Notes: generated by a model not told the origin, from the letters alone. Numbered from the stretch's first letter, positions 4,957 through 22,630 are shown. The stretch is DNA of 29,004 nt from a virus (IMGVR_UViG_3300032397_000794:1-29004); one strand, 5' to 3'. Translations and numbers: made by a program.

Positions 4957-5130
4957 TATATATAGGGGCTCTAGCACAGGTTCCGGGTCGTTGGAAGGGT
5001 CCCTGGGGTAACTGCCTGGTTTCATTGAGAAAGAAAAGTTGTGGTAAGGGCTTGCGTTGAATGGGTTGAATGGTTAAGTTTGTTGGGCGGGAGAGAAGGG
5101 CGGGCCGGGAAGACCGGGTAAAAATTGAAT
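4957..5130. promoter_or_regulatory. Divergent intergenic control region, AT-rich
   Basis: This stretch separates leftward replication genes from rightward genes and is the only extended AT-rich non-coding DNA in the left half. It contains TATATATAAT (minus strand 4964-4955) abutting the ParB-like start, a tandem repeat at 5056-5073, and an A/T tract near 5117-5128. Promoters for both directions are expected here, but I could not match a convincing -35/-10 pair, so individual promoters are not called. Confidence 0.5.
5056..5073 (+). repeat. Two adjacent exact copies of GTTGAATGG
   Basis: Bases 5056-5064 and 5065-5073 are identical 9-mers placed head to tail, followed by TTAAG. The spacing is just under one helical turn, as in operators or iterons. 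It lies in the divergent control region, so a binding site for the nearby HTH or ParB-like protein is a reasonable guess. Confidence 0.6.
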
Positions 5131-5485
5131 AGCTGGCTACGACGAACGAGGGGCTGCCCCTTCGCCCATGAGGTCCCGCCTAGAGCGGCTGCACCCAAGG
5201 CGAGGGAGGAACACCGGCCCCGGAACCTACTGCGGCACGACAGCGCGACGGGAGCCCCAACGGTGGGAGCTCGAGCGACGCCTCGTCCTGGGAGTAGCTG
5301 GGCCTGCGAGACCGGCCCAACTGGAACTCACGCACGATCGCAGTCGACGCCCCACCGGGGCGCGGCTCGCAGGGCGAACGTGAGGCGCCGCAAGCGGGCC
5401 CGCCCGCCAGCAACGCGAGGGTCGATTCCCTCGGCGGCGCACGACTGCGTTTCACCACCACCACCACCACGAAAAGGACACCACC
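5131..5485 (+). ncRNA. Long non-coding hairpin-rich leader (candidate structured RNA)
   Basis: About 350 bases without a credible gene; open frames on either strand here lack Shine-Dalgarno sequences and protein-like composition. Visible hairpins: GGGG/CCCC near 5150-5160; AGcTGGGCC/GGCCCAaCT at 5296-5304 and 5314-5322 (one mismatch); CGCCCC-ACC-GGGGCG at 5348-5362; and a three-way-junction-like fold at 5385-5440. It is followed by a CACCACC tract and the Shine-Dalgarno sequence of the gene at 5486. It could be a long 5' leader or a separate small RNA; no known RNA family was recognised. Confidence 0.4.
5385..5444 (+). other. tRNA-like three-way junction lacking an arm
   Basis: A 7-bp outer stem GCGCCGC (5385-5391) / GCGGCGC (5434-5440) encloses a hairpin GCGGG-CCCG-CCCGC (5394-5407) and a hairpin CGAGG-GTCGATTC-CCTCG (5416-5433). 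The second hairpin abuts the outer 3' strand with no gap, as a T-arm does, and its loop resembles TTCGATT. The whole is only about 56 nt, too short for a tRNA: one arm is missing and the 3' tail is ACGA. It is not called as a tRNA. The 3' end GGCGCACGA matches the 3' end of the leader element at 5797-5842. Confidence 0.4.
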
Positions 5486-5752
5486 ATGGCGAACAAGAGC
5501 TACTGCCGCTTCCAGAACACCCTCGGCGACCTCCGCGATTGCCTCGACTCGATGATGGCGAAGCTGATCGAGGGCGAGGGCGACGAGGGCGACGAGTTCA
5601 CGACCATCTCGGGCAAGGAGGCCAACGCGCGTAAGCAGCTGATCGAGACCTGCGTCGAGATCCTCAGCTTCGCACACGAGAACGACCTGCTCCCCCACAA
5701 CATCCGCATCGACGCCGCTGACGGCATCGGCGCGACCATCGATGACGAGTAG
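5486..5752 (+). CDS. Small conserved-type phage protein, function unknown
   Basis: An 88-residue acidic soluble protein beginning MANKSYCRFQNTLGDLRDCL. A YCRF-N-T-DL-DCL start followed by a helical A-R-K-Q-L-I-E-T-C-V-E-I segment resembles small uncharacterised phage proteins I have seen, but no function is known to me. An EGEGDEGDE acidic stretch lies at about residues 29-38. The ATG at 5486 is preceded by AAAGGA about 9 bases upstream and by a CACCACC-rich leader shared with other rightward genes. It is the first gene rightward of the control region, so it is probably expressed early and strongly. Confidence 0.8.
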   Translation: MANKSYCRFQNTLGDLRDCLDSMMAKLIEGEGDEGDEFTTISGKEANARKQLIETCVEILSFAHENDLLPHNIRIDAADGIGATIDDE

Positions 5753-5796
5753 CGCCTGGGCTGCTTGCCAAGGCGCGCTCAACGATCGTACAAACG

Positions 5797-5842
5797 GCGC
5801 CCCCACCCAGAGGGACCGCGAGGCTCACCGCCTCCGGGGCGC
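5797..5842 (+). ncRNA. Structured leader element, copy A
   Basis: Outer stem GCGCCCC (5797-5803) / GGGGCGC (5836-5842) encloses the core CACCCAGAGGGACCGC (5804-5819) and an inner stem GAGG (5820-5823) / CCTC (5831-5834) with a loop containing CACC. The core and outer stem recur exactly at 8613-8656 while the inner stem sequence changes but still pairs. It lies in the 157-base gap before the gene at 5910, so it would sit in that gene's 5' leader. It has no T-run, so it is not an intrinsic terminator. Confidence 0.6.
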
Positions 5843-5909
5843 ACGAACGCTTGGACCGCTAGATGGCGGCACCCGGCGATCAAAAACCACCATCACGGAG
5901 AAAACGACC

Positions 5910-6515
5910 ATGGCCACTGCGAACAACCACAAGTCCACCGCCTCGAAGACCACCTCGGCCAAGCCGACCAAGGCCGCGCCCAAGACGGCGGCGAAGCGGG
6001 ACCTCGACGATGAGCTCGACGGTGCCGCCGGTACCAAGGGCGGCGGCGACGTGCCCTACTGGAAGAAGATGAACGCGCTGCCGGCGGCCAAGCGGATCCA
6101 GATCCGCGTCGCGAACGTCTCCGACCGGCTCGCGCGCCTGGTCGACGACACCACCGGCTGGCAGGGGATGGACGCCTTCCAGCCGAGCCTGCTCACCGCC
6201 GAGCTGAAGGACTTGGCGACCAAGGTCGCCCAGATCGGGCTCGCGTTCGGCGGGGCGCCCGACGGCTACAAGCCCACGGCGGCTCGCGCTGGCAAGGCGC
6301 CGAAGGGCGAGATCGTGGTCGGCTCGCTGATCCGCCTCACCGACAAGCAGGCGCCGAACTACGCCGGGGCCCTGGAGCCGGCACAGATGGTCGGCATCAA
6401 GGTGCTGGAGGTGCGCGACAACAAGCTGGTCGCGCTGACGAACGACGGCGTGAAGATGCTCATCTCGCGCGGCCACGTCTGCCTCGACGCGGCCACCGCC
6501 GCGCCCGCCGTCTGA
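5910..6515 (+). CDS. Unknown protein with basic K/A/T/P-rich N-terminal tail
   Basis: A 201-residue protein of unknown function. The first ~40 residues are a low-complexity basic tail with KTTSAKPTKAAPKTAAK, reminiscent of histone-H1-like or nucleoid-protein tails. A folded part with a helical region (SDRLARLVDD, ELKDLATKVAQI) follows, then a beta-rich C-terminus (GEIVVGSLIRL, VLEVRDNKLVALTNDGVKML) that may form a small barrel. The ATG at 5910 is preferred over the far-upstream in-frame ATG because GGAG lies about 9 bases before it and the upstream part overlaps structured leader A. Binding to nucleic acid is plausible from the tail; nothing more can be claimed. Confidence 0.75.
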   Translation: MATANNHKSTASKTTSAKPTKAAPKTAAKRDLDDELDGAAGTKGGGDVPYWKKMNALPAAKRIQIRVANVSDRLARLVDDTTGWQGMDAFQPSLLTAELKDLATKVAQIGLAFGGAPDGYKPTAARAGKAPKGEIVVGSLIRLTDKQAPNYAGALEPAQMVGIKVLEVRDNKLVALTNDGVKMLISRGHVCLDAATAAPAV

Positions 6516-6533
6516 GTCCGAGGTAGGGCACTT

Positions 6534-6611
6534 CGCTCCCCAACAGGAGCGCCGCCCGGCCAGCCCGTGAGCCTCCACCGAGGGGTTCGCTGGTTGGCCG
6601 GACTGCGTCCG
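6534..6611 (+). ncRNA. Hairpin-rich leader before the gene at 6638
   Basis: Three hairpins fill the gap after the stop at 6515. CGCTCC/GGAGCG spans about 6534-6551. CCGGCCAGCC (6556-6565) pairs with GGTTGGCCGG (6592-6601), with an inner CCTC-CACC-GAGG (6572-6583). CGGAC-TGC-GTCCG is at 6599-6611, competing with the second stem. The inner hairpin followed by a GGGG-like run resembles the core of copies A and B, but the 16-nt conserved string is absent, so membership of the same family is uncertain. Confidence 0.4.
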
Positions 6612-6637
6612 CAATCACCCACCACAAGGAGACGACC

Positions 6638-6877
6638 GTGAACAAGCACAACGATCAGAAAACCATTCTCAAGGCGCGGGCTGTCAAGACCGTGCGCGAG
6701 GCGTTCACCCGCCTCGTCCACACCGAGGCGCCGAGCGAGGAGCAGCTCCTCTCTCTGGCGACCATCTTGGCGATCAACACCGACGCCCGTCGGGCGTGGG
6801 ACATCATCCAGGGGAACGCGAGCCTGCTCATCTCCGCCGCCGACGCGGAGATTAGCAGCGAGCGGGTGTTGCTGTGA
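6638..6877 (+). CDS. Small helical protein, function unknown
   Basis: A 79-residue, mostly helical, mildly basic N-terminal then acidic C-terminal protein (TILKARAVKTVREAFTRLVH ... EEQLLSLATILAIN). No motif was recognised. The GTG at 6638 has AAGGAG 6 bases upstream and no competing start. It ends in a GTGA overlap with the following DUF6744-like gene, so the two are probably translated together. It heads a tight four-gene run ending with the sigma-like gene. Confidence 0.75.
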   Translation: MNKHNDQKTILKARAVKTVREAFTRLVHTEAPSEEQLLSLATILAINTDARRAWDIIQGNASLLISAADAEISSERVLL

Positions 6878-7746
6878 ACGCGCTCGCGAGCAGCCTGATC
6901 GCCGTCGCTGAGGACGTCGTCGGCTCGGACATCGGGGCGATCGTCTGGTGGAAGCTCTCCGGCGACGTCTCGGCGGACCGGCTGACGGTCGCGCTCGGTG
7001 GCCTGCCGGGCCCCGCGTTGCCGAGCCCCGACGTCGCCCTGCGGCGCGGGGTCAAGGCGCTGGCCAAGCGCAACCTGCTCGTCCGCTCGATCAAGGGCGA
7101 GGGTTGGGCGCTGGTGTCCGAGGACGACGAGGGGATCAAGGGGCTGGTCTACGCCAGCCCGGCCGACCAGCCACGGGTCAAGCTCGACATCATCGGGCGC
7201 CTATATTTCTCCCCTCACTGGTCGTGCTCTGCCGAGGCGAAGGTGCGCGACGCCTTCACCTACCACCAGGAGTGGCTCGACAGCGACGACATCTCGCCGT
7301 GGCTGATCGACCAGGCCACCATGTGTGGGGCGGTGCCGCTGCGCGACGGCGGTGGCGTGTACTTCGTTCCGGCGGGCGACGGCCTGCGACGGTGGAAGGA
7401 AATCACCGCCGCGCTGACCAGCGTGTCGGCGAGCTCGATCTACACGGTGCGTGCGATGCGGTCGGACGGCGACGCCGTCCGGTCGGCGATCGACGGCCTC
7501 ACGGGGCAGATCGAGGAGGAGGTCGCCAAGCGGACGGCCGACGCGATCTCCGGGACCCTCGGTGTCCGCGCGCTGAACAACCGGGCCAACGAGGCTCGCG
7601 ACCTGGCGCGCAAGGTGCGGCAGTACGAGAGCCTGCTCGGGGCGAACCTGGGTAAGTTGGTCGACTCGCTCGACCAGCTCGACACGCAGATCGCGGCGGC
7701 GGTGCTCGCGGCCGAGGCGCAGGCCGAGGAGGACGCCAATGGCTGA
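6874..7746 (+). CDS. DUF6744-like phage protein
   Basis: A 290-residue protein whose pattern (WWKLSGDVSADRL, GLP, LPSPDVALRRGVKAL, then LYFSPHW, DISPWLIDQA, LRDGGGVYFVP and an alpha-helical C-terminus) matches the uncharacterised phage family I know as DUF6744; this is from memory, not a search. Residues about 20-95 look like a winged-helix-like segment with a closing strand; residues about 210-285 are helical and could form a coiled coil. Molecular function is unknown. It starts at a GTG within a GTGA overlap and its end overlaps the zinc-ribbon gene by 8 bases. Confidence 0.75.
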   Translation: MNALASSLIAVAEDVVGSDIGAIVWWKLSGDVSADRLTVALGGLPGPALPSPDVALRRGVKALAKRNLLVRSIKGEGWALVSEDDEGIKGLVYASPADQPRVKLDIIGRLYFSPHWSCSAEAKVRDAFTYHQEWLDSDDISPWLIDQATMCGAVPLRDGGGVYFVPAGDGLRRWKEITAALTSVSASSIYTVRAMRSDGDAVRSAIDGLTGQIEEEVAKRTADAISGTLGVRALNNRANEARDLARKVRQYESLLGANLGKLVDSLDQLDTQIAAAVLAAEAQAEEDANG

Positions 7747-8041
7747 GCTCCTCGACCTCACCAAGCTCGTGCGGCGCACCAAGGCGCTCCGGGCGGCTTG
7801 CCCCCATCACTACATCCCCAAACGTAACGGCGTGCAGCGTTGCGAGCACTGCGGGGACCAGTTCCCCTGCCGCGACAACTGCATCCACCTCGACTGCATC
7901 GAGCGGGCCATCGGGCTCGGGCTCCGCAAGTTCCCACGGGACTACCCGGTGGCGCTGGTGGTGACCGAGTCCAAGGGGTCGCTCGACGTGGTCGTGATCG
8001 ACACGACCGACGATGACCCGCTGGAGTGGGTGACGCCGTGA
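7739..8041 (+). CDS. Small zinc-ribbon protein
   Basis: A 100-residue protein with a cysteine/histidine cluster at about residues 21-53: CPHHYIP, CEHCGDQFPC, CIHLDC. The spacing suggests one or two zinc sites. The C-terminal half is a short alpha/beta tail (YPVALVVTESKGSLDVVVID). Such proteins often bind nucleic acid or act as transcription adaptors; the role is inferred only from the cluster and from being translationally linked (GTGA overlap) to the sigma-like gene that follows. The ATG at 7739 overlaps the previous gene by 8 bases. Confidence 0.75.
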   Translation: MAELLDLTKLVRRTKALRAACPHHYIPKRNGVQRCEHCGDQFPCRDNCIHLDCIERAIGLGLRKFPRDYPVALVVTESKGSLDVVVIDTTDDDPLEWVTP

Positions 8042-8577
8042 ATGTCGACCCGAACGACGTCCTCGAGGTCGCCAGACACGTTGCTCGTAACTACAAGCGC
8101 CGCTGTTGGTGGGTCGATGTCGACGACCTGACCAGCGAGGCGTGCCTCCAGATCATGCTCTCGGCCCGGTCGTTCGATCCACAGGTCGGCGTCGCCTTCA
8201 AGGGGTACGCATACCGGGCCGCGATGCGGTCGCTGTCATACTACGTCCGCCGGCAGTCGTCGCCGGTCAGCGCGAGCGACGCCACGCTCAAGGACATGGT
8301 CAACGCTCGCCGCGCCGAGGTGCCCATCGGCCTCACCGACCACAGGCCGAGCGCGGCCGAGCAGCTCGACACGGTGCGCTGGCATCTCGCGGCTCGCCGG
8401 CAGATCCGACGGGTCGCCGCCAAGACGACTAATGGAGATGCGGCGATCAGGACCATCCTCGACGGCGACAAGCCGGCTCCTGCGGCGCGGGCAACTACAA
8501 GCCGCGCCGTCCACCTGATCCGACGTAAGCTGCGCGACGACGCTGTCATGTTTGAGCTCTGGCAGCGCACACCGTAG
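8038..8577 (+). CDS. Sigma-70-like factor
   Basis: A 179-residue protein resembling the region-2 core of a sigma-70-family factor: VDVDDLTSEACLQIMLSA, then RSFDPQVGVAFKGYAYRAAM, then RSLSYYVRRQSSPVS, at about residues 25-80. The pattern D-D-L-x-x-E and F-D-P-x-x-G-V-x-F-x-x-Y-A is typical of region 2.1-2.3. A region-4-like helix-turn-helix in the C-terminus is weak (TSRAVHLIRRKLRDD). It would redirect host RNA polymerase to phage promoters. GTG at 8038 is chosen because it forms a GTGA overlap; an in-frame GTG 12 bases upstream is also possible. A non-sigma DNA-binding role cannot be excluded. Confidence 0.7.
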   Translation: MNVDPNDVLEVARHVARNYKRRCWWVDVDDLTSEACLQIMLSARSFDPQVGVAFKGYAYRAAMRSLSYYVRRQSSPVSASDATLKDMVNARRAEVPIGLTDHRPSAAEQLDTVRWHLAARRQIRRVAAKTTNGDAAIRTILDGDKPAPAARATTSRAVHLIRRKLRDDAVMFELWQRTP

Positions 8578-8612
8578 GAACTCCACCTCACCTAACGTAA
8601 GACTCCGCTACC

Positions 8613-8656
8613 GCGCCCCACCCAGAGGGACCGCCCGACCCACCGTCGGGGGGCGC
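8613..8656 (+). ncRNA. Structured leader element, copy B
   Basis: Outer stem GCGCCCC (8613-8619) / GGGGCGC (8650-8656), core CACCCAGAGGGACCGC (8619-8634), inner stem CCGAC (8635-8639) / GTCGG (8645-8649) with loop CCACC. Compared with copy A at 5797-5842 the core and outer stem are identical and the inner stem differs on both strands while keeping pairing. It lies in the 125-base gap between the sigma-like gene and the MoxR gene, followed by an ACC-rich stretch and the MoxR Shine-Dalgarno sequence. Confidence 0.6.
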
Positions 8657-8702
8657 ACCACCGCCGGCCACTCACCACCACGACAACGAAAGGCACACGA
8701 TC

Positions 8703-9911
8703 ATGTCCAGTAATATGTCCCGCATCATCCGCACCGCCCTATTCACCCCGACCTCCGATGGGTGGGGCCTTCCCCTCCTCTTCTGGGGTGGCCCCGGCGT
8801 CGGCAAGAGCGCCATCGTCGAGGGCATCGGCCGCAACTACGGGCTGCCCGTCGAGGTGCTCTCCCCCGGCGAGCGCGGCGAGGGCGCCTTCGGGGTCATC
8901 GGCGTGCCCGACACCGAGGGGTACATCGCCTATCCGCCGCCCCGCTGGGTCCAGCAGTTCGAGGGTAGCCACGGCGGCTTCCTGTTCGTCGACGAGCTCA
9001 CCACGGCGCCGCCCGCGATCCAGTCCGCGCTGCTCGGGCTGCTGCTCAAGAAGCGCATCGGCGGTTCGACCCTCAACGGTCGCGTGCGCATCCTCGGCGC
9101 GGCGAACCCGATCGGCGACGGGGCCGGCTGCAACGACCTGGCCCCGGCGGTCGCGAACCGACTCGGTCACTTCAACTGGGAGGCCCCCTCCGAGACCGAG
9201 TGGTCGGAGTGGTTGATGTCGTCGATCAACGACACCACCGTCGTGGTCGAGCCGGCGAAGATCCTCGAGGCTCGCGTGATGGCCAACTGGGCTCGCCCGT
9301 GGGCGAAGTTCCGCGGGCTCGTCGCCGGATTCATCCGCGCCAACCCGGCGCTACTGCACAAGCAGCCCCCGAACGGCCACCCGGACTCGAGCCGCGCTTG
9401 GCCGTCGCATCGCTCCTGGGAGTATGCCTGCCGCGCGATGGCCGGCGCCGAGGCGAACGGGATGGGCGAGGTCGACGGCGACATGCTCGCCGCGTCGTTC
9501 GTCGGGCCTGGCGCGATCGGAGAGCTTGTCGAGTACCGCACCAAGTCGGACCTCCCCGACCCGGTCGACGTGCTCGACGGCAAGGTGATCTTCAAGCCGG
9601 ACTTCAAGCGGCTCGACCGCACATTCGCCGTCCTCGGCTCGACCACTAGCCTGGTGATGGGCGCGGTCGCTGAGATGAGCAAGGGCGCCGCGGCCGGCGG
9701 GGTCGCGAAGGCGATCAGGCAGGACAAGGTCCTGTCGCGCCGCCTCGATGCGCTCATCGAGCTCCTCACCAAGACTTCCGAGGGGGCGATCGACCTCACC
9801 TGGAACTCGGCCAAGCAGCTCGCAAAGGCCGGCATCCACGACATCAGCGACGACTCGAAGAAGCTGATCAAGCGGATGCGTCCGCTCATCGACGCCGTTG
9901 AGCAGCGGTAG
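8703..9911 (+). CDS. MoxR-type AAA+ ATPase
   Basis: A 402-residue AAA+ ATPase of the MoxR/CbbQ kind, which remodels or activates partner proteins with a VWA domain. Walker A GGPGVGKS lies at residues 29-36, Walker B FLFVDE at 93-98, sensor-1 GAANP at about 132-136, and an arginine-finger segment ANRLGHF at 151-157. The C-terminal ~180 residues are helical and not assigned. The ATG at 8703 follows GAAAGG. The next gene encodes a VWA/metallopeptidase-like protein 32 bases downstream, the usual partner arrangement for MoxR ATPases. It is soluble and presumably cytoplasmic. Confidence 0.9.
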   Translation: MSSNMSRIIRTALFTPTSDGWGLPLLFWGGPGVGKSAIVEGIGRNYGLPVEVLSPGERGEGAFGVIGVPDTEGYIAYPPPRWVQQFEGSHGGFLFVDELTTAPPAIQSALLGLLLKKRIGGSTLNGRVRILGAANPIGDGAGCNDLAPAVANRLGHFNWEAPSETEWSEWLMSSINDTTVVVEPAKILEARVMANWARPWAKFRGLVAGFIRANPALLHKQPPNGHPDSSRAWPSHRSWEYACRAMAGAEANGMGEVDGDMLAASFVGPGAIGELVEYRTKSDLPDPVDVLDGKVIFKPDFKRLDRTFAVLGSTTSLVMGAVAEMSKGAAAGGVAKAIRQDKVLSRRLDALIELLTKTSEGAIDLTWNSAKQLAKAGIHDISDDSKKLIKRMRPLIDAVEQR

Positions 9912-9943: not shown

Positions 9944-11209
9944 ATGAGCATCGCAGACAGGATGGCGACGGGCAGGCTCGTTGCCCAGCGCAAGGCACCG
10001 TACTTCAAGTCGCTGATTCAGTCGCTCGTCCCCCACGAAACCCCCGACGTGAGTACGATCGGGATCACTAAGACCCTCGTCCTGTTCTTCAACGCGGAGT
10101 GGCTCGACACCTGCTCGCCCGAGCAGATCGCCGGCCTGTACTGGCACGAAGGGATGCACATCGTCCTCGGACACCACGAGCGTCGCGGCGACCGCGACCC
10201 GCTGATGTTCAACATCGCGGGCGACATCTTCATCAACGACCAGGGGCGTAACGCCGGCTTCCAGTTCCCGCCGGGCGGCATGTTCCCCGAGCTCTTCGGA
10301 TTCCCCAAGAACCTCACCTCCGACGAGTACTACGCGCTGCTGCTCAAGATGGGGAAGGACGCCGCCAAGCAAAAGCTCGAGGACGAGCAGGGCGGTGAAG
10401 GCGGGGAGGGCGAGCCCGACCCGAAGAAGCGCAAGTGGAGTTCTGGGCAATGCGGCAGCGGCGCGGGTAACGGGCAGGACAGCGAGCCCGACGGCGCCGC
10501 TCCCGAGGTCGGTGGGCGCAGCGAGGCCGAGGTCCGCCAGTCCGTCATGCGCGTGGCCGAGGCGGTGAAGGCCGAGGCGCAGAAGGGTCGCGGCAACATG
10601 CCCTGCGGGCTCGACCGTTGGGCCGACGAGGCGCTCAAGCCGGCGCAGATCCCGTGGCAGACCAAGCTCTCGCGGGCCCTGCGGCAGTGCGTGAACTACC
10701 GCCCCGGAGCGGTGGACTACTCGTACTCGCGCCTATCGCGACGCCAGGCCGGCGTCGGCTTCGGCGTCGGCAAGCCAATCTTGCCGGCGCTGGTGCGGCC
10801 GGTCCCTCGCGTCGCGTTCGTCCTCGACACGTCGGGCTCGATGGGAACCGACCAGCTCAACGCGGGCCTCGCCGAGTGCCAGGGGATCCTCGCGGCGCTC
10901 GGCGCCGACGTGACGTTCATCTCCTGCGACGCCGCGGTCCACGCGGTCGGCAAGGTCAGCTCGACGTCGCAGATGAAGAAGCTCGTCAAGGGCGGCGGGG
11001 GGACGGACTTCAACCCGGCCTTCGAGTACATCACCGCGATGCGGCCTCGCCCCGAGGTGGTGATCTTCGCCACCGACGGCGATGGGTGGGCTCCCAAGTC
11101 GGTGCCGCCCTACCGCGTCCTCTGGCTGCTGATCGACTCGTACTGCGACCAGCCCCCGGTTCCGTGGGGCGAGCCGGTGGTGGTGTCGACCAGGGAGCGG
11201 GCGACGTGA
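9944..11209 (+). CDS. VWA-like protein with metallopeptidase-like N-terminus (DUF2201 type)
   Basis: A 421-residue protein with two parts. The N-terminal domain has WHEGMHIVLGHHERR: HEGMH (68-72) is an HExxH zinc-binding motif, followed by a conserved-looking DIFINDQGR. A glycine/acid-rich linker occupies about 145-190. The C-terminal VWA domain has a MIDAS: DTSGS at 295-299, the threonine of GGTDF at about 354, and a later ATDGDG. This order matches DUF2201-type putative metallopeptidase/VWA proteins. Such proteins are usually partnered with a MoxR ATPase, here immediately upstream. The ATG has AGAGG upstream. Whether it is an active protease is not known. Confidence 0.85.
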   Translation: MSIADRMATGRLVAQRKAPYFKSLIQSLVPHETPDVSTIGITKTLVLFFNAEWLDTCSPEQIAGLYWHEGMHIVLGHHERRGDRDPLMFNIAGDIFINDQGRNAGFQFPPGGMFPELFGFPKNLTSDEYYALLLKMGKDAAKQKLEDEQGGEGGEGEPDPKKRKWSSGQCGSGAGNGQDSEPDGAAPEVGGRSEAEVRQSVMRVAEAVKAEAQKGRGNMPCGLDRWADEALKPAQIPWQTKLSRALRQCVNYRPGAVDYSYSRLSRRQAGVGFGVGKPILPALVRPVPRVAFVLDTSGSMGTDQLNAGLAECQGILAALGADVTFISCDAAVHAVGKVSSTSQMKKLVKGGGGTDFNPAFEYITAMRPRPEVVIFATDGDGWAPKSVPPYRVLWLLIDSYCDQPPVPWGEPVVVSTRERAT

Positions 11210-11541: not shown

Positions 11542-11576
11542 GCCCGCCTGGGGTGAAACCCAGCGCGGGCTTTTTT
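11542..11576 (+). terminator. Rho-independent terminator
   Basis: GCCCGC (11542-11547) pairs with GCGGGC (11565-11570) and CTGGG (11548-11552) with CCCAG (11559-11563), with one bulged C, followed immediately by TTTTTT (11571-11576). It is read rightward only; the opposite strand lacks a T-run. It would end the MoxR/VWA transcript and sits directly before the Shine-Dalgarno sequence of the next gene. Confidence 0.85.
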
Positions 11577-11584
11577 CGTTTTCT

Positions 11585-18324: not shown

Positions 18325-20463
18325 CTACGCTAGCTCGAGAGTGGCGAACACGTTGGTCTGGCCGGAGGTTACACCCGCCGCCTTGACGATGGACAGGCTG
18401 ATGAGGTCGCCAGCAGCCACGACCACCGTGTGCGTGGTGTCGCTGGTCAGGTTGGGCGACGCCGCGTCGTTGGCGACCGTCACGGTGATGGCCGTGTCGG
18501 CGCCGTTCTTGCGGACGGTGTAGACCACGTTCTGCGTCCCGACCCCGGCCCCGGTGCCGCGCACGCGCAAATTGCGGAGCGTGCCGACGCGCGTGACCGC
18601 TAGCTGCACCTCGGTCGCGGTCGCAGTCGCGATGTACCCAGGCGCGGGGTAGACCGCCGTCGCGACGGCGGTGGTGTCGCCGGTACCGAACACAAGCTGG
18701 CTGCCGCCGATGGCGACCCAGCCCGTATTTCCGGTGCCGCTCTCCTTGTAGTAGAACGTACTCGACGGACCACCGTCACGGCGCTGGTAGGTCGAGCCAA
18801 CCGTCGCGGTCACGTTGCCTTCCGGCGTGCCGCTACCCGACCAGACGTTGGGGCCGGTCGTGCAGGCGTTGCCGCCGGTCCGCAGGTACAGCGTCGCGCC
18901 ACTGATCGTGTAGTCGGCGGTGACGGCGTTGATCGTGTTACCCGCGAGCTGGTACTCGTTGGTGAACGTGCCGCCAGTCTGCGAGGTGTAGAAGACTCCC
19001 GTGTCCACGTTGTCGAGCATGTTGCCGTTGATCTGGCAGAGGCTCACCGCGTCGGTCGTGGCGAGCACCAGGATGGCAGCCAGGAACGTTCCGGCCTCGG
19101 CGCTGATGTTGTTGCCCGTGATCTGGAGGTTGCTGACAGCCGCCGAGGACGTGGACGCGAAGGTCGCGGCGACCGTGCTCGTCGCGCCCGCGTTGGTGTA
19201 GTGGATCATGTTCCCGGAAAACTGGATATTGCTTGCCGAGCGGACGAAGACGCACTCCTGGCCGGTGATCTCCTGCATGAACACGTTGCGCTGGATCTGG
19301 ACCCCGAGCGTGAGGTTGGCGGCGCTATTCGACACCGAGAGGCAGTAGCCGTTGCCCGTCGTCGATACACGGCTGATGACGTTGGTCGAGATCTGAATGT
19401 CGGAGTTTGCCCCGTCGAGTTGGACGACCGGGGCCGTCACGGCGGCGGTCGCCTGGTAGACCGCGTTGCCGAGCATCTGCGAACGCTTCAGGCCCTTGAG
19501 GTAGACGCTGCCGAGGATGACGTTGTCGGCGATCTGGATGCGGTTGGCGCGCGTCGTGGTGTCGCCGCTGATCGAGAGCGCGATACCGCCCGAGGCGGTG
19601 CTGGTCAGTTCGTTACCGCAGATCTTGATGTCGTCGATGGCACCCGCCGCCGACGCGATGTAGATCTCGGTCGTACCGGAGGTCGCGATCTCGTTGTCGA
19701 CGATCCAGCCCGTCGTCGCGTAGTCCCCGACGTAGACGCCATAGGTACCCATGTCGCGGATCTCACACTCGGCGATCCACCAGCTATCCATGTGGTGGCT
19801 GGTGTTGCCCTCGATCTTGATCCCGTAGCCGCCCGCCACGCCGTTGGAGAACCGGCAGCGCGTGGCTTTGACGAACTGCGCCGCCGTCGAGCCGTCGCCC
19901 CAGTGCAACATGTTGCAGGAGCCCGCGAGCGGGCTGACGACGCCGGCCTGGCTGAAGGTCAGGTCCTCCCACTCGATGCCGGTCGAGGCGCCCCGCACCA
20001 GGAACAGATCCCAGGCGGTCGAGCCGGCGTTGCCGCTCATCGTGATGGTCGCGCCGCCGAACCCCGACCCGAGGAACCGGATGCTGTTCATGCCGGTGAT
20101 GTCGAACGAGTACGCCTGCGCCGCGACGCGCGAGCACAGGTAGGTGCCCTGCGGGAAGTACACGCAGCCGCCGATCACGGCGGCGGCTGTGATGGCAGAC
20201 TGGATGGCGGCGCGGTCGTCCGTCACCCCATCGCCGGTCGCCCCGTAGTCGAGGACGTTGGTGTAGATGCTGTGCGCCGACTGCGTCCAGGCGGTGTTGC
20301 CGGCGGCGGTCTTGGTGTAGTCGCCGGCCGTGCCAGGCCCTCGGAAGTACTTGCTGCCGATGGCCGCGACGACGCCGCCACCAGCGGTCGGGTCGGCGGT
20401 GCCGTTGAGGAGGCTTACGCCCTTGAGGACGACGGTGTCGGCGTTGACTTGTTTGCTGCTCAT
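18325..20463 (-). CDS. Tail spike with pectate-lyase-like beta-helix (copy 1)
   Basis: A 712-residue spike. Residues about 1-60 are an attachment domain (LLNGTADPTAGGGVV). At about 70-110 comes the pectate-lyase-superfamily start VLDYGATGDGVTDDRAAIQS, with FPQGTYLCS soon after. Repeated N-x-I/V/L rungs of a right-handed beta-helix run to about residue 540. A conserved segment FYYKESGTGNTGWVAIG at about 578 precedes a C-terminal beta-sandwich (GTLRNLRVRGTGAG). It probably binds or degrades host surface polysaccharide. ATG at 20463 has GAGG upstream. It is a clear paralogue of the next spike. Confidence 0.85.
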   Translation of the reverse strand: MSSKQVNADTVVLKGVSLLNGTADPTAGGGVVAAIGSKYFRGPGTAGDYTKTAAGNTAWTQSAHSIYTNVLDYGATGDGVTDDRAAIQSAITAAAVIGGCVYFPQGTYLCSRVAAQAYSFDITGMNSIRFLGSGFGGATITMSGNAGSTAWDLFLVRGASTGIEWEDLTFSQAGVVSPLAGSCNMLHWGDGSTAAQFVKATRCRFSNGVAGGYGIKIEGNTSHHMDSWWIAECEIRDMGTYGVYVGDYATTGWIVDNEIATSGTTEIYIASAAGAIDDIKICGNELTSTASGGIALSISGDTTTRANRIQIADNVILGSVYLKGLKRSQMLGNAVYQATAAVTAPVVQLDGANSDIQISTNVISRVSTTGNGYCLSVSNSAANLTLGVQIQRNVFMQEITGQECVFVRSASNIQFSGNMIHYTNAGATSTVAATFASTSSAAVSNLQITGNNISAEAGTFLAAILVLATTDAVSLCQINGNMLDNVDTGVFYTSQTGGTFTNEYQLAGNTINAVTADYTISGATLYLRTGGNACTTGPNVWSGSGTPEGNVTATVGSTYQRRDGGPSSTFYYKESGTGNTGWVAIGGSQLVFGTGDTTAVATAVYPAPGYIATATATEVQLAVTRVGTLRNLRVRGTGAGVGTQNVVYTVRKNGADTAITVTVANDAASPNLTSDTTHTVVVAAGDLISLSIVKAAGVTSGQTNVFATLELA

Positions 20464-20470
20464 GTGGTCC

Positions 20471-22630
20471 TCAGCTTGCGGCGATCTCGAACGTGACGAT
20501 GACCAGCGACGGGGCGGTGACGGGGGCCTGACTCTTGGTCGTCTTGACGCCGATGATGTCTCCGACGGCGACCGTCGAAGTTCCCGTGCCCGTTCCCGTC
20601 GTCGCGGTGAAGTTCAGGGTACACGTCGGGTTCACGGCGGTGCCGTTCTTGCGAACGATGATCGTCGAAGTACCGGCCCCGGTCCCAGCCTTCTGGTGGA
20701 CGCGCATGTTTCGCAACGTGCCTGCGAATGGGCAGGCAATCGAAAGCTCGGTGCCGCTCTCGGTCGCCAGCGCCATACCAGGCGCGAGGAACTGCGTGCC
20801 GGTGGTCAGGTTCATCGCCAGGACACCGAACTGGAGAGTGGTCGGGCCGACGTTGATCCAGCCGGTGTTGCCCGCACCGCTCTCTTTGACGTAGAGCGTG
20901 AGGCCGTTGCCACCACCGGAGAAGCGCCGGGCCATCGAGCCGATGGCGGCAGTGATCGCTGCCTCCGGCGTCGCGTTCGCTGACCAGTTGGCGCAGCCGA
21001 GCCCAAGCGCGACGTTGCCGTCCGACGCGGTGATTCCGCCGACACCCGTGCTGGTGCAGATACCAACGTTGCGCGAGGCCATCGAAGGCCCGCGCTGGAC
21101 CGCGCCCGACGCCGAGGTGATGTCCGCGATGTCGGTCGCGGTGTTGACCATGTTGTCGACGACGATCCCCGCGTACTGGTCCTTCGGCGACGCACTCAAG
21201 ATCACGCCATCACCGAGCCGGACGCCGCCCGTCGAGAGGATCATGTTCTCGGCGACGAGGTTGGCTTTGCCGTCGTTGGTGAGCGCGCGGATGTTCACGC
21301 CGTTGCCAATACCCGCCACGGTCTGGTTCGCCGACAGCAGGTTGTTGGAGCAGGTGACGAACTGCGTACCCTCGAAGCGGACCATGACAGTTCCAGCCGC
21401 AGCGTGCGCGTCGGTGAAGATGTTGCCAGCGAAGATGATCCCGTAGTCGAGTACGACCGTGGATTGAAGCTGGAACGAGATCGACGACCCATCGACTAGC
21501 TGGTCGGCTTCGACATAGATCTGGTTGTCGGTGACGATCACGTCGTTGATGCGCTCGCGGAAGTCGAGCGCGCGGTTACCCTGCGCCGGATAGCCGGTGT
21601 TGACGACGATGTTCCCAGCGAACACAAGCTGCTGCACGTCGAGGTTGGGGCCACAGACCCCGTGCAAGATCGTGTTCAGCTTGAAGATGACCCAGCGGTT
21701 CCGGCCCACGCTGGTGCCGGTGAGCGTGACGCAGCCTTGCACCGACGCTGCGCTGTGCAGGAAGTGGTTACGCCGGATGATGTGCGACCCGAGCTGCTGC
21801 GTCGAGGTCGCCTCGAAGTCGATCTCTTGGTCGTGACTGCCCGTCATGTAGCAGTCGGCGATGTTCACCTCGAACGTGCCGCGCTGATAGGCCACACCCG
21901 AACGAGCGCCTGCACCGCCTACGTCGAGCGTGAAGACGCACCGCTTGATCAGCACGTCGCGGACGTAGTGCGTGCCGCCGAGCACGCGCACGCCATCCCC
22001 GACGCAGTAGTAGAAGCGGCAGTCGATCACGCGCCCGCGCCCCGTCTCGGTGGTGGTCGCGGAGTTCAGCCACTCCAGCAGGTGGTCCTGGTCGGACGGG
22101 TCGGGGCTGGTCACCATGTCGCCGATGAAGCCGACGTTCTTGAAGGTGACGTATTGGTTCCCTGCGCTCATCGAGAACAGGTGCCACTCACCGAACGCCG
22201 CCGAGCCCTTCTTGCGGATGATAGAGGCTCCGGCGTTGTCGCCCTGGAACAGCAGCTTGCTCGACGACGCCTGGAGGTTGAACGAGCCGATGCCGTTCTT
22301 CGAGCAGGCGTAGGTGCCGGCCGGGATGTAGATGACGCCACCGCCGACGGCCAGCGCCGCCGTGATCGCGGCCTGGATCGCCACGCGGTCGTCCGTCGTG
22401 CCATCGCCGATCGCGCCGTAGTCCTTGATGTTGAACCACTGCCCTTGGTCGAGAAGCTGTCGCCAGGCGTTGTCTGTCGAGCCTTGCTTCATCCACTGCA
22501 AGCGGCCAGGACCGAACGCGCGCGAGCCTACCGGAGCGGAAACACCCGCGCCCGCACGCGGGTCAACCAGCGTGCCCATCAGGTCGACAGCCTTGAGCCG
22601 GACGTGGTCGGCTGAGAGCGTCTTGCTCAT
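20471..22630 (-). CDS. Tail spike with pectate-lyase-like beta-helix (copy 2)
   Basis: A 719-residue spike with the same layout as the neighbouring spike: attachment segment VDLMGTLVDPRAGAGVSAPV, pectate-lyase start NIKDYGAIGDGTTDDRVAIQ and IPAGTYACS, beta-helix rungs in the middle, LYVKESGAGNTGWINVG near residue 590, and a C-terminal sandwich (GTLRNMRVHQKAG). Ends are similar in the two copies while the helix body differs, the usual sign of host-range diversification. It starts in an ATGA overlap with the short appendage gene. No catalytic residues can be assigned by eye. Confidence 0.85.
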   Translation of the reverse strand: MSKTLSADHVRLKAVDLMGTLVDPRAGAGVSAPVGSRAFGPGRLQWMKQGSTDNAWRQLLDQGQWFNIKDYGAIGDGTTDDRVAIQAAITAALAVGGGVIYIPAGTYACSKNGIGSFNLQASSSKLLFQGDNAGASIIRKKGSAAFGEWHLFSMSAGNQYVTFKNVGFIGDMVTSPDPSDQDHLLEWLNSATTTETGRGRVIDCRFYYCVGDGVRVLGGTHYVRDVLIKRCVFTLDVGGAGARSGVAYQRGTFEVNIADCYMTGSHDQEIDFEATSTQQLGSHIIRRNHFLHSAASVQGCVTLTGTSVGRNRWVIFKLNTILHGVCGPNLDVQQLVFAGNIVVNTGYPAQGNRALDFRERINDVIVTDNQIYVEADQLVDGSSISFQLQSTVVLDYGIIFAGNIFTDAHAAAGTVMVRFEGTQFVTCSNNLLSANQTVAGIGNGVNIRALTNDGKANLVAENMILSTGGVRLGDGVILSASPKDQYAGIVVDNMVNTATDIADITSASGAVQRGPSMASRNVGICTSTGVGGITASDGNVALGLGCANWSANATPEAAITAAIGSMARRFSGGGNGLTLYVKESGAGNTGWINVGPTTLQFGVLAMNLTTGTQFLAPGMALATESGTELSIACPFAGTLRNMRVHQKAGTGAGTSTIIVRKNGTAVNPTCTLNFTATTGTGTGTSTVAVGDIIGVKTTKSQAPVTAPSLVIVTFEIAAS

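Follow-up and report, generated by a model that had tools for sequence, protein, structure and literature searches.

Three structure-conserved elements in the gaps of a rightward operon of a bacterial virus, and a candidate role as cis-acting RNA

Background

In the early mRNA of phage T7, RNase III sites are repeated gap hairpins that define mRNA ends before genes, and RNase III requires a duplex of about 20 bp. The three elements described here, from the rightward operon of another bacterial virus, are alike in being hairpins repeated in the gaps of polycistronic phage mRNA. However, they contain only 12–13 stacked positions and not the near-continuous duplex of about 20 bp; only an unrelated hairpin of the same operon (6556–6601, 19 bp) resembles such a site. 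The 5' mRNA stabilisers of the ompA type are located at the 5' end of a single-gene transcript. As in our elements, a ribosome site without structure comes after a stable 5' stem, but the elements here recur inside an operon.

Of the systems described so far, the extended start-associated sequences (ESAS) of cluster K mycobacteriophages come closest. They are 17-bp imperfect inverted repeats with spacers mostly of 4–13 bp beside GGGATAGGAGCCC, and for which the authors found little support for mRNA hairpins (PMC3203893). In both cases inverted repeats recur ahead of many gene starts within a single phage lineage, together with a start-proximal consensus. In contrast, the arms here are 7 bp long and 30–42 nt apart, with a nested hairpin, covarying pairs and no SAS motif; read directly, the sequence before these starts contains no GGGATAGGAGCCC. 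Finally, the 12-bp acceptor/T stack is believed to serve RNase P as a measure; the enzyme pairs with the 3' RCCA and cleaves acceptor/T-arm minihelices (PMC11143913).

Results

The contig and its operons

The window analysed is the whole of IMGVR_UViG_3300032397_000794, an IMG/VR record of a bacterial virus with 29,004 bases and 66% GC. Leftward genes, including a helicase and a ParB-like protein, occupy 1–5 kb, and leftward tail genes occupy 12.3–29 kb. Between them, a rightward operon from about 5.4 to 11.4 kb encodes an 88-aa protein of phrog_8760, unknown proteins, a sigma-70 region 2 protein, an AAA ATPase and a DUF2201/VWA protein. For every protein tried, isolated phages gave only distant relatives. 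The genes that follow the elements, and the one after them, are:

5486–5752, + strand: gene behind element 3; its 88-aa product is of phrog_8760 and a relative of Pseudomonas phage YuA gp47
5910–6515, + strand: gene behind element 1, 201 aa, family search without result
8703–9911, + strand: gene behind element 2, AAA/MoxR-type ATPase
9944–11209, + strand: DUF2201 metallopeptidase-VWA gene, next after the ATPase gene

Several other features of the contig were observed. The first 72 nt of gene 5486–5752 have 83% identity to YuA gp47, which is unusual beside otherwise very distant genes. The pair of AAA/MoxR ATPase and DUF2201 metallopeptidase-VWA genes recurs in many distant phages, where the latter is often annotated as HNH endonuclease. 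By direct reading, a textbook intrinsic terminator (GCCCGC...GCGGGC, then TTTTTT) at 11542–11577 closes the rightward operon ahead of gene 11596. About 360 nt of structured, non-coding sequence (5026–5384) separate the divergent operons, and a small hairpin there (GCCCC-ACC-GGGGC, 5347–5380) scores 10.4 bits, which is chance level. Among the tail genes, a 99-nt repeat (20162–20260 and 22335–22433, 74%) lies between two adjacent paralogous tail-spike-like genes.

Two copies with a shared core and an exchanged inner stem

The elements and the fourth structure discussed below are as follows.

5797–5842, + strand: element 1; P1 5797–5803/5836–5842, P2 5806–5808/5812–5814, P3 5820–5824/5830–5834 with loop TCACC (from sequence, fold and pair counts)
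8613–8656, + strand: element 2; P1 8613–8619/8650–8656, P2 8621–8623/8627–8629, P3 8635–8639/8645–8649 with loop CCACC (from sequence, fold and pair counts)
5385–5440, + strand: element 3; P1 5385–5391/5434–5440 (GCGCCGC/GCGGCGC), P2 5394–5398/5403–5407, P3 5416–5421/5428–5433 with loop TCGATT (from covariance model, fold and descriptor scan)
6556–6601, + strand: long simple hairpin of 10 bp, a C.U mismatch and 9 bp, with four G.U pairs, -44.7 kcal/mol, z -4.8

Elements 1 and 2 had been noticed in an initial annotation for a common outer stem, GCGCCCC/GGGGCGC, which is confirmed by direct sequence; a trailing GCGCAC is shared as well. The core reported there as 16 nt is indeed identical, but the exact word is longer, at 19 nt (CCCCACCCAGAGGGACCGC, 5801–5819 and 8616–8634); in 500 trials with shuffled gap sets the longest shared word never exceeded 14 nt. 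As for the inner stems, CCGAC/GTCGG was given correctly, while GAGG/CCTC is one pair longer (GAGGC/GCCTC), and both stems are 5 bp (GAGGC-tcacc-GCCTC in element 1, CCGAC-ccacc-GTCGG in element 2). The two copies differ mainly in this inner stem and its loop: the P2 hairpin and junction CCCAGAGGGACCGC are invariant while P3 swaps bases. The likeness stops at the closing stem, and the sequence after the element is not conserved. By sequence, elements 1 and 2 demonstrably share ancestry.

When elements 1 and 2 were aligned without structure, three P3 pairs were changed on both sides and none was broken, in agreement with the annotated changed-but-paired inner stem. For these two alone, three double changes were also reached by 69 of 500 shuffles, because two sequences give little power.

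Recovery of a third member

A covariance model built from elements 1 and 2 only was applied, unfiltered, to both strands of the 29,004-base window. It found the unseen 5385–5443 (element 3) with 24.7 bits (E about 8e-4); no other place in the window scored above 15.4 bits. In order to compare, the best score in 0.95 Mb of other viral loci was 14.8 bits. DNA chosen beforehand for the core or the outer stem, 1.16 Mb and mostly GC-rich, gave at most 20.2 bits away from the core, and its hits of up to 25.9 bits fell on the preselected 16-mer. On neither strand of the leftward operons was an element found, as the initial annotation had stated. Of the two further hairpins that it described as sharing part of the design, 5385–5440 was recovered by the model, while 6556–6601 was left unmatched and is rejected as a member. 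The observation is confirmed and enlarged to three members, with one of the four named structures dropped.

Element 3 does not contain the core of elements 1 and 2. By eye, it has CGCGAGG.TC and GGCGCACGA in common with element 1; P1 pair 6 and P3 pair 5 are swapped as whole pairs. The common architecture is a 7-bp closing stem, 1–2 nt, a small hairpin (CCC-AGA-GGG in elements 1 and 2, GCGGG-CCCG-CCCGC in element 3), 5–8 nt, and an inner hairpin of 5–6 bp that stands 0–1 nt from the 3' strand of the closing stem. Across the three elements, which are paralogues from one 29 kb contig, 15 of 15 pairs are kept and 6 of 15 are changed on both sides without any unpaired cell, which no shuffle reaches, and pairing falls to 38–53% when the partner strand is slid; these figures lean towards structure because the alignment was fitted to structure. 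The folds persist in 180–324 nt of context, with element 3 the weakest (mean pairing probability of its closing stem 0.53 in the longest context).

A descriptor (7-bp outer stem, abutting 5-bp inner hairpin, 3-bp hairpin between) matched three of the five rightward gaps, whereas 3000 shuffles gave 0.01 on average and never 2 or more; this figure flatters because the descriptor was defined after seeing the copies. Four more places in the window match it, all overlapping coding sequence, and in other DNA it occurs about once per 25 kb. An abutting inner stem of at least 5 bp is present in 2 of 80 chance IMG/VR places with the same outer stem and like spacing (among the matches listed), and in 3 of 3 here.

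Could these be chance hairpins spread by neutral local duplication, without function? Hairpins come cheap because the sequence is GC-rich, and the single-sequence z-scores are only -2.2 to -2.6. However, a neutral duplicate would not keep its pairing through three double changes, nor would it let an unseen third copy be recovered, and we give this explanation a close to negligible probability. A structure-conserved RNA within this contig is well supported.

Position before genes

All three elements are on the + strand in non-coding gaps of the rightward operon, 45–67 nt upstream of start codons: element 3 ends 45 nt before ATG 5486, element 1 ends 67 nt before ATG 5910, and element 2 ends 46 nt before ATG 8703 of the AAA ATPase gene. 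Four gaps in the operon are longer than 100 nt, and three of them contain an element. The fourth (6516–6637) contains a different hairpin, the 19-bp one at 6556–6601, in the equivalent position before GTG 6638; it looks more like an RNase III-type site than like the three elements.

A coding function of the elements was rejected on codon usage. GC3 is 0.68 in 5742–5909 and 0.94–0.96 in the genes on either side, even though an open frame runs through element 1; the matching frame of element 2 has an upstream stop and no start codon. A promoter-like pair just upstream of element 1 (TTGCCA, 18 nt, TACAAA) was given no weight because it is absent from the others and fails the scan, and no common promoter was seen at the three elements.

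Between each element and its gene lies a leader with the ribosome site, recognised by aligning five rightward start contexts:

5443–5485, + strand: A/C-rich leader and ribosome site before gene 5486, CACCACCACCACCACGAAAAGGACACCACC
5845–5909, + strand: leader and ribosome site before gene 5910, AAACCACCATCACGGAGAAAACGACC
8659–8702, + strand: leader and ribosome site before gene 8703, TCACCACCACGACAACGAAAGGCACACGATC

The pattern common to the five starts is close to CACC..ACGAAAGG.CACGACCATG, and in a fold of the context the mean unpaired value around the start of gene 5486 is 0.74.

This arrangement bears on whether the elements are sites at which an RNA-binding protein of the phage or its host co-regulates the downstream genes, either through a translational operator or through antitermination or anti-decay. 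An invariant CCCAGAGGGACCGC core on a base-swapping P3 is what one would expect if a scaffold carried a contacted core, and the element recurs ahead of three different genes. On the other hand, the core is absent from element 3, the elements end 45–67 nt before the start codons and leave the ribosome site uncovered, and no candidate binding protein was found. On balance we regard such a site as unlikely.

Tests against known RNA classes

With Rfam 15, no match was found in the window at the gathering cut-off, and at E 10 the elements gave only chance-level matches, in line with the initial annotation, which had recognised no known RNA class. HDV-like, hammerhead and other Rfam ribozymes were rejected, with no match and with unconserved sequence 3' of the element. 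The elements are not intrinsic terminators because no T-run follows the stem, and both a scan and the sequence show no such site there.

A further candidate is a tRNA-mimic processing site, at which host RNase P (or RNase Z) would cut and split the polycistronic mRNA. The closing stem and the abutting 5-bp hairpin would copy the 12-bp acceptor/T-arm stack, and the fold would be left at a new 5' or 3' end. The 7-bp stem with an abutting 5-bp hairpin is like the RNase P minihelix substrates (PMC11143913): in element 2 exactly 7+5 pairs are contiguous and ACCA, an RCCA motif, comes next, and element 3 has a T-arm-like hairpin, GAGGG-TCGATT-CCCTC. However, the 12-bp stack and RCCA are present in element 2 only, elements 1 and 3 having 13 stack positions and ACGA, and ACCA is common in these A/C-rich leaders. 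The loops of elements 1 and 2 are not T-loops, ARAGORN finds no tRNA, and the Rfam tRNA model is silent even at E 10 on the isolated stretches. We consider a processing site of this type quite unlikely. A broader proposal, which is very improbable, sees in the elements a novel class of tRNA mimic between phage cistrons. These would be minimal three-way junctions resembling an acceptor and T-arm that recruit host RNase P or RNase Z, so that the operon is cut into mRNAs under separate control, and they would have spread as a module and diverged under selection for structure.

Distribution

Exact core scans of IMG/VR gave 2 places for the 16-mer and 38 for the 14-mer, none with the stems, and the 16-mer occurs at 54 places in 84,980 GTDB species genomes, none with the fold. 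An outer-stem pattern scan of IMG/VR returned at least 120 stretches, with no member among the matches listed. The covariance model, which recovers its own record, found no member in 49 records, most of them with distant DUF2201 relatives, and nothing at the cut-offs used in 794 whole genomes from two phyla; a 28-bit Arthrobacter match has a mismatched outer stem and is at chance level.

Three single-protein queries returned no relatives, and an alignment search with DUF2201 gave relatives at about 30% only. The nearest relative found, via an AAA alignment, is IMGVR_UViG_3300033414_000001 (78.9 kb). Seven of its tail-region proteins have 34–48% identity to those of the window, and AAA and DUF2201 about 41%; by sequence, it is a genuine relative. 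The covariance model detects no element in it, and an apparent leftward ORF lies upstream of its AAA gene instead. This absence is weak counter-evidence because the gene block of 5.4–8.6 kb is missing (no recognisable relatives of these genes were found in it) and identity is only about 41%, and it says little on closer kin.

A DNA-level repeat, either an operator or a small mobile palindrome of the REP type inserting in gaps, with a dyad or cruciform, must be weighed here. The conservation is bounded by an inverted repeat and several copies lie in gaps; a DNA-level dyad is compatible with the pairs since all of them in the three elements are Watson-Crick, with no G.U. However, the three copies have a single orientation and an equivalent position with respect to genes, the differences in P3 are paired changes, unlike fresh insertions, and no copies occur elsewhere in the contig or in other records searched. 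Such a repeat appears distinctly improbable.

Discussion

The initial annotation had read its two copies as a conserved RNA, and held that a lack of further copies with covarying stems in related phages would refute this. Three members with six doubly changed pairs and none broken agree with that reading, and the search from two copies yielded a third in the contig; but no further copy was found in the 49 records, the nearest relative or the other genomes searched so far, which is weak evidence against it. Its interpretation is thus partly supported.

We favour a cis-acting RNA because pairing is preserved between diverged paralogues on one strand and at a fixed place before genes. That the elements are a lineage-specific mRNA leader or intercistronic module, which marks or protects mRNA segments, has in our judgement an even chance of being right. 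The three elements would be paralogous copies of one structured RNA in the leaders and gaps of the rightward operon. Each is predicted to fold as a compact three-way junction whose inner hairpin stacks immediately onto the closing stem at its 3' strand, and the junction would be followed by an A/C-rich, largely unpaired stretch with the ribosome site. In the mRNA, the module may form a 5' structural boundary for each gene segment, at which one and the same RNase or RNA-binding protein lands or stops. The ends and the half-life of the segments could be set in this way and the ribosome site screened off from the sequence upstream, and several genes might thereby be tuned by one factor.

The fold could be deduced without relatives because paralogous copies give covariation from one genome. 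If the tRNA-mimic reading were true, the phage would be using a host tRNA-maturation enzyme as an mRNA processor. More generally, repeated structure-conserved leaders in one phage operon would point to a single factor controlling several genes post-transcriptionally.
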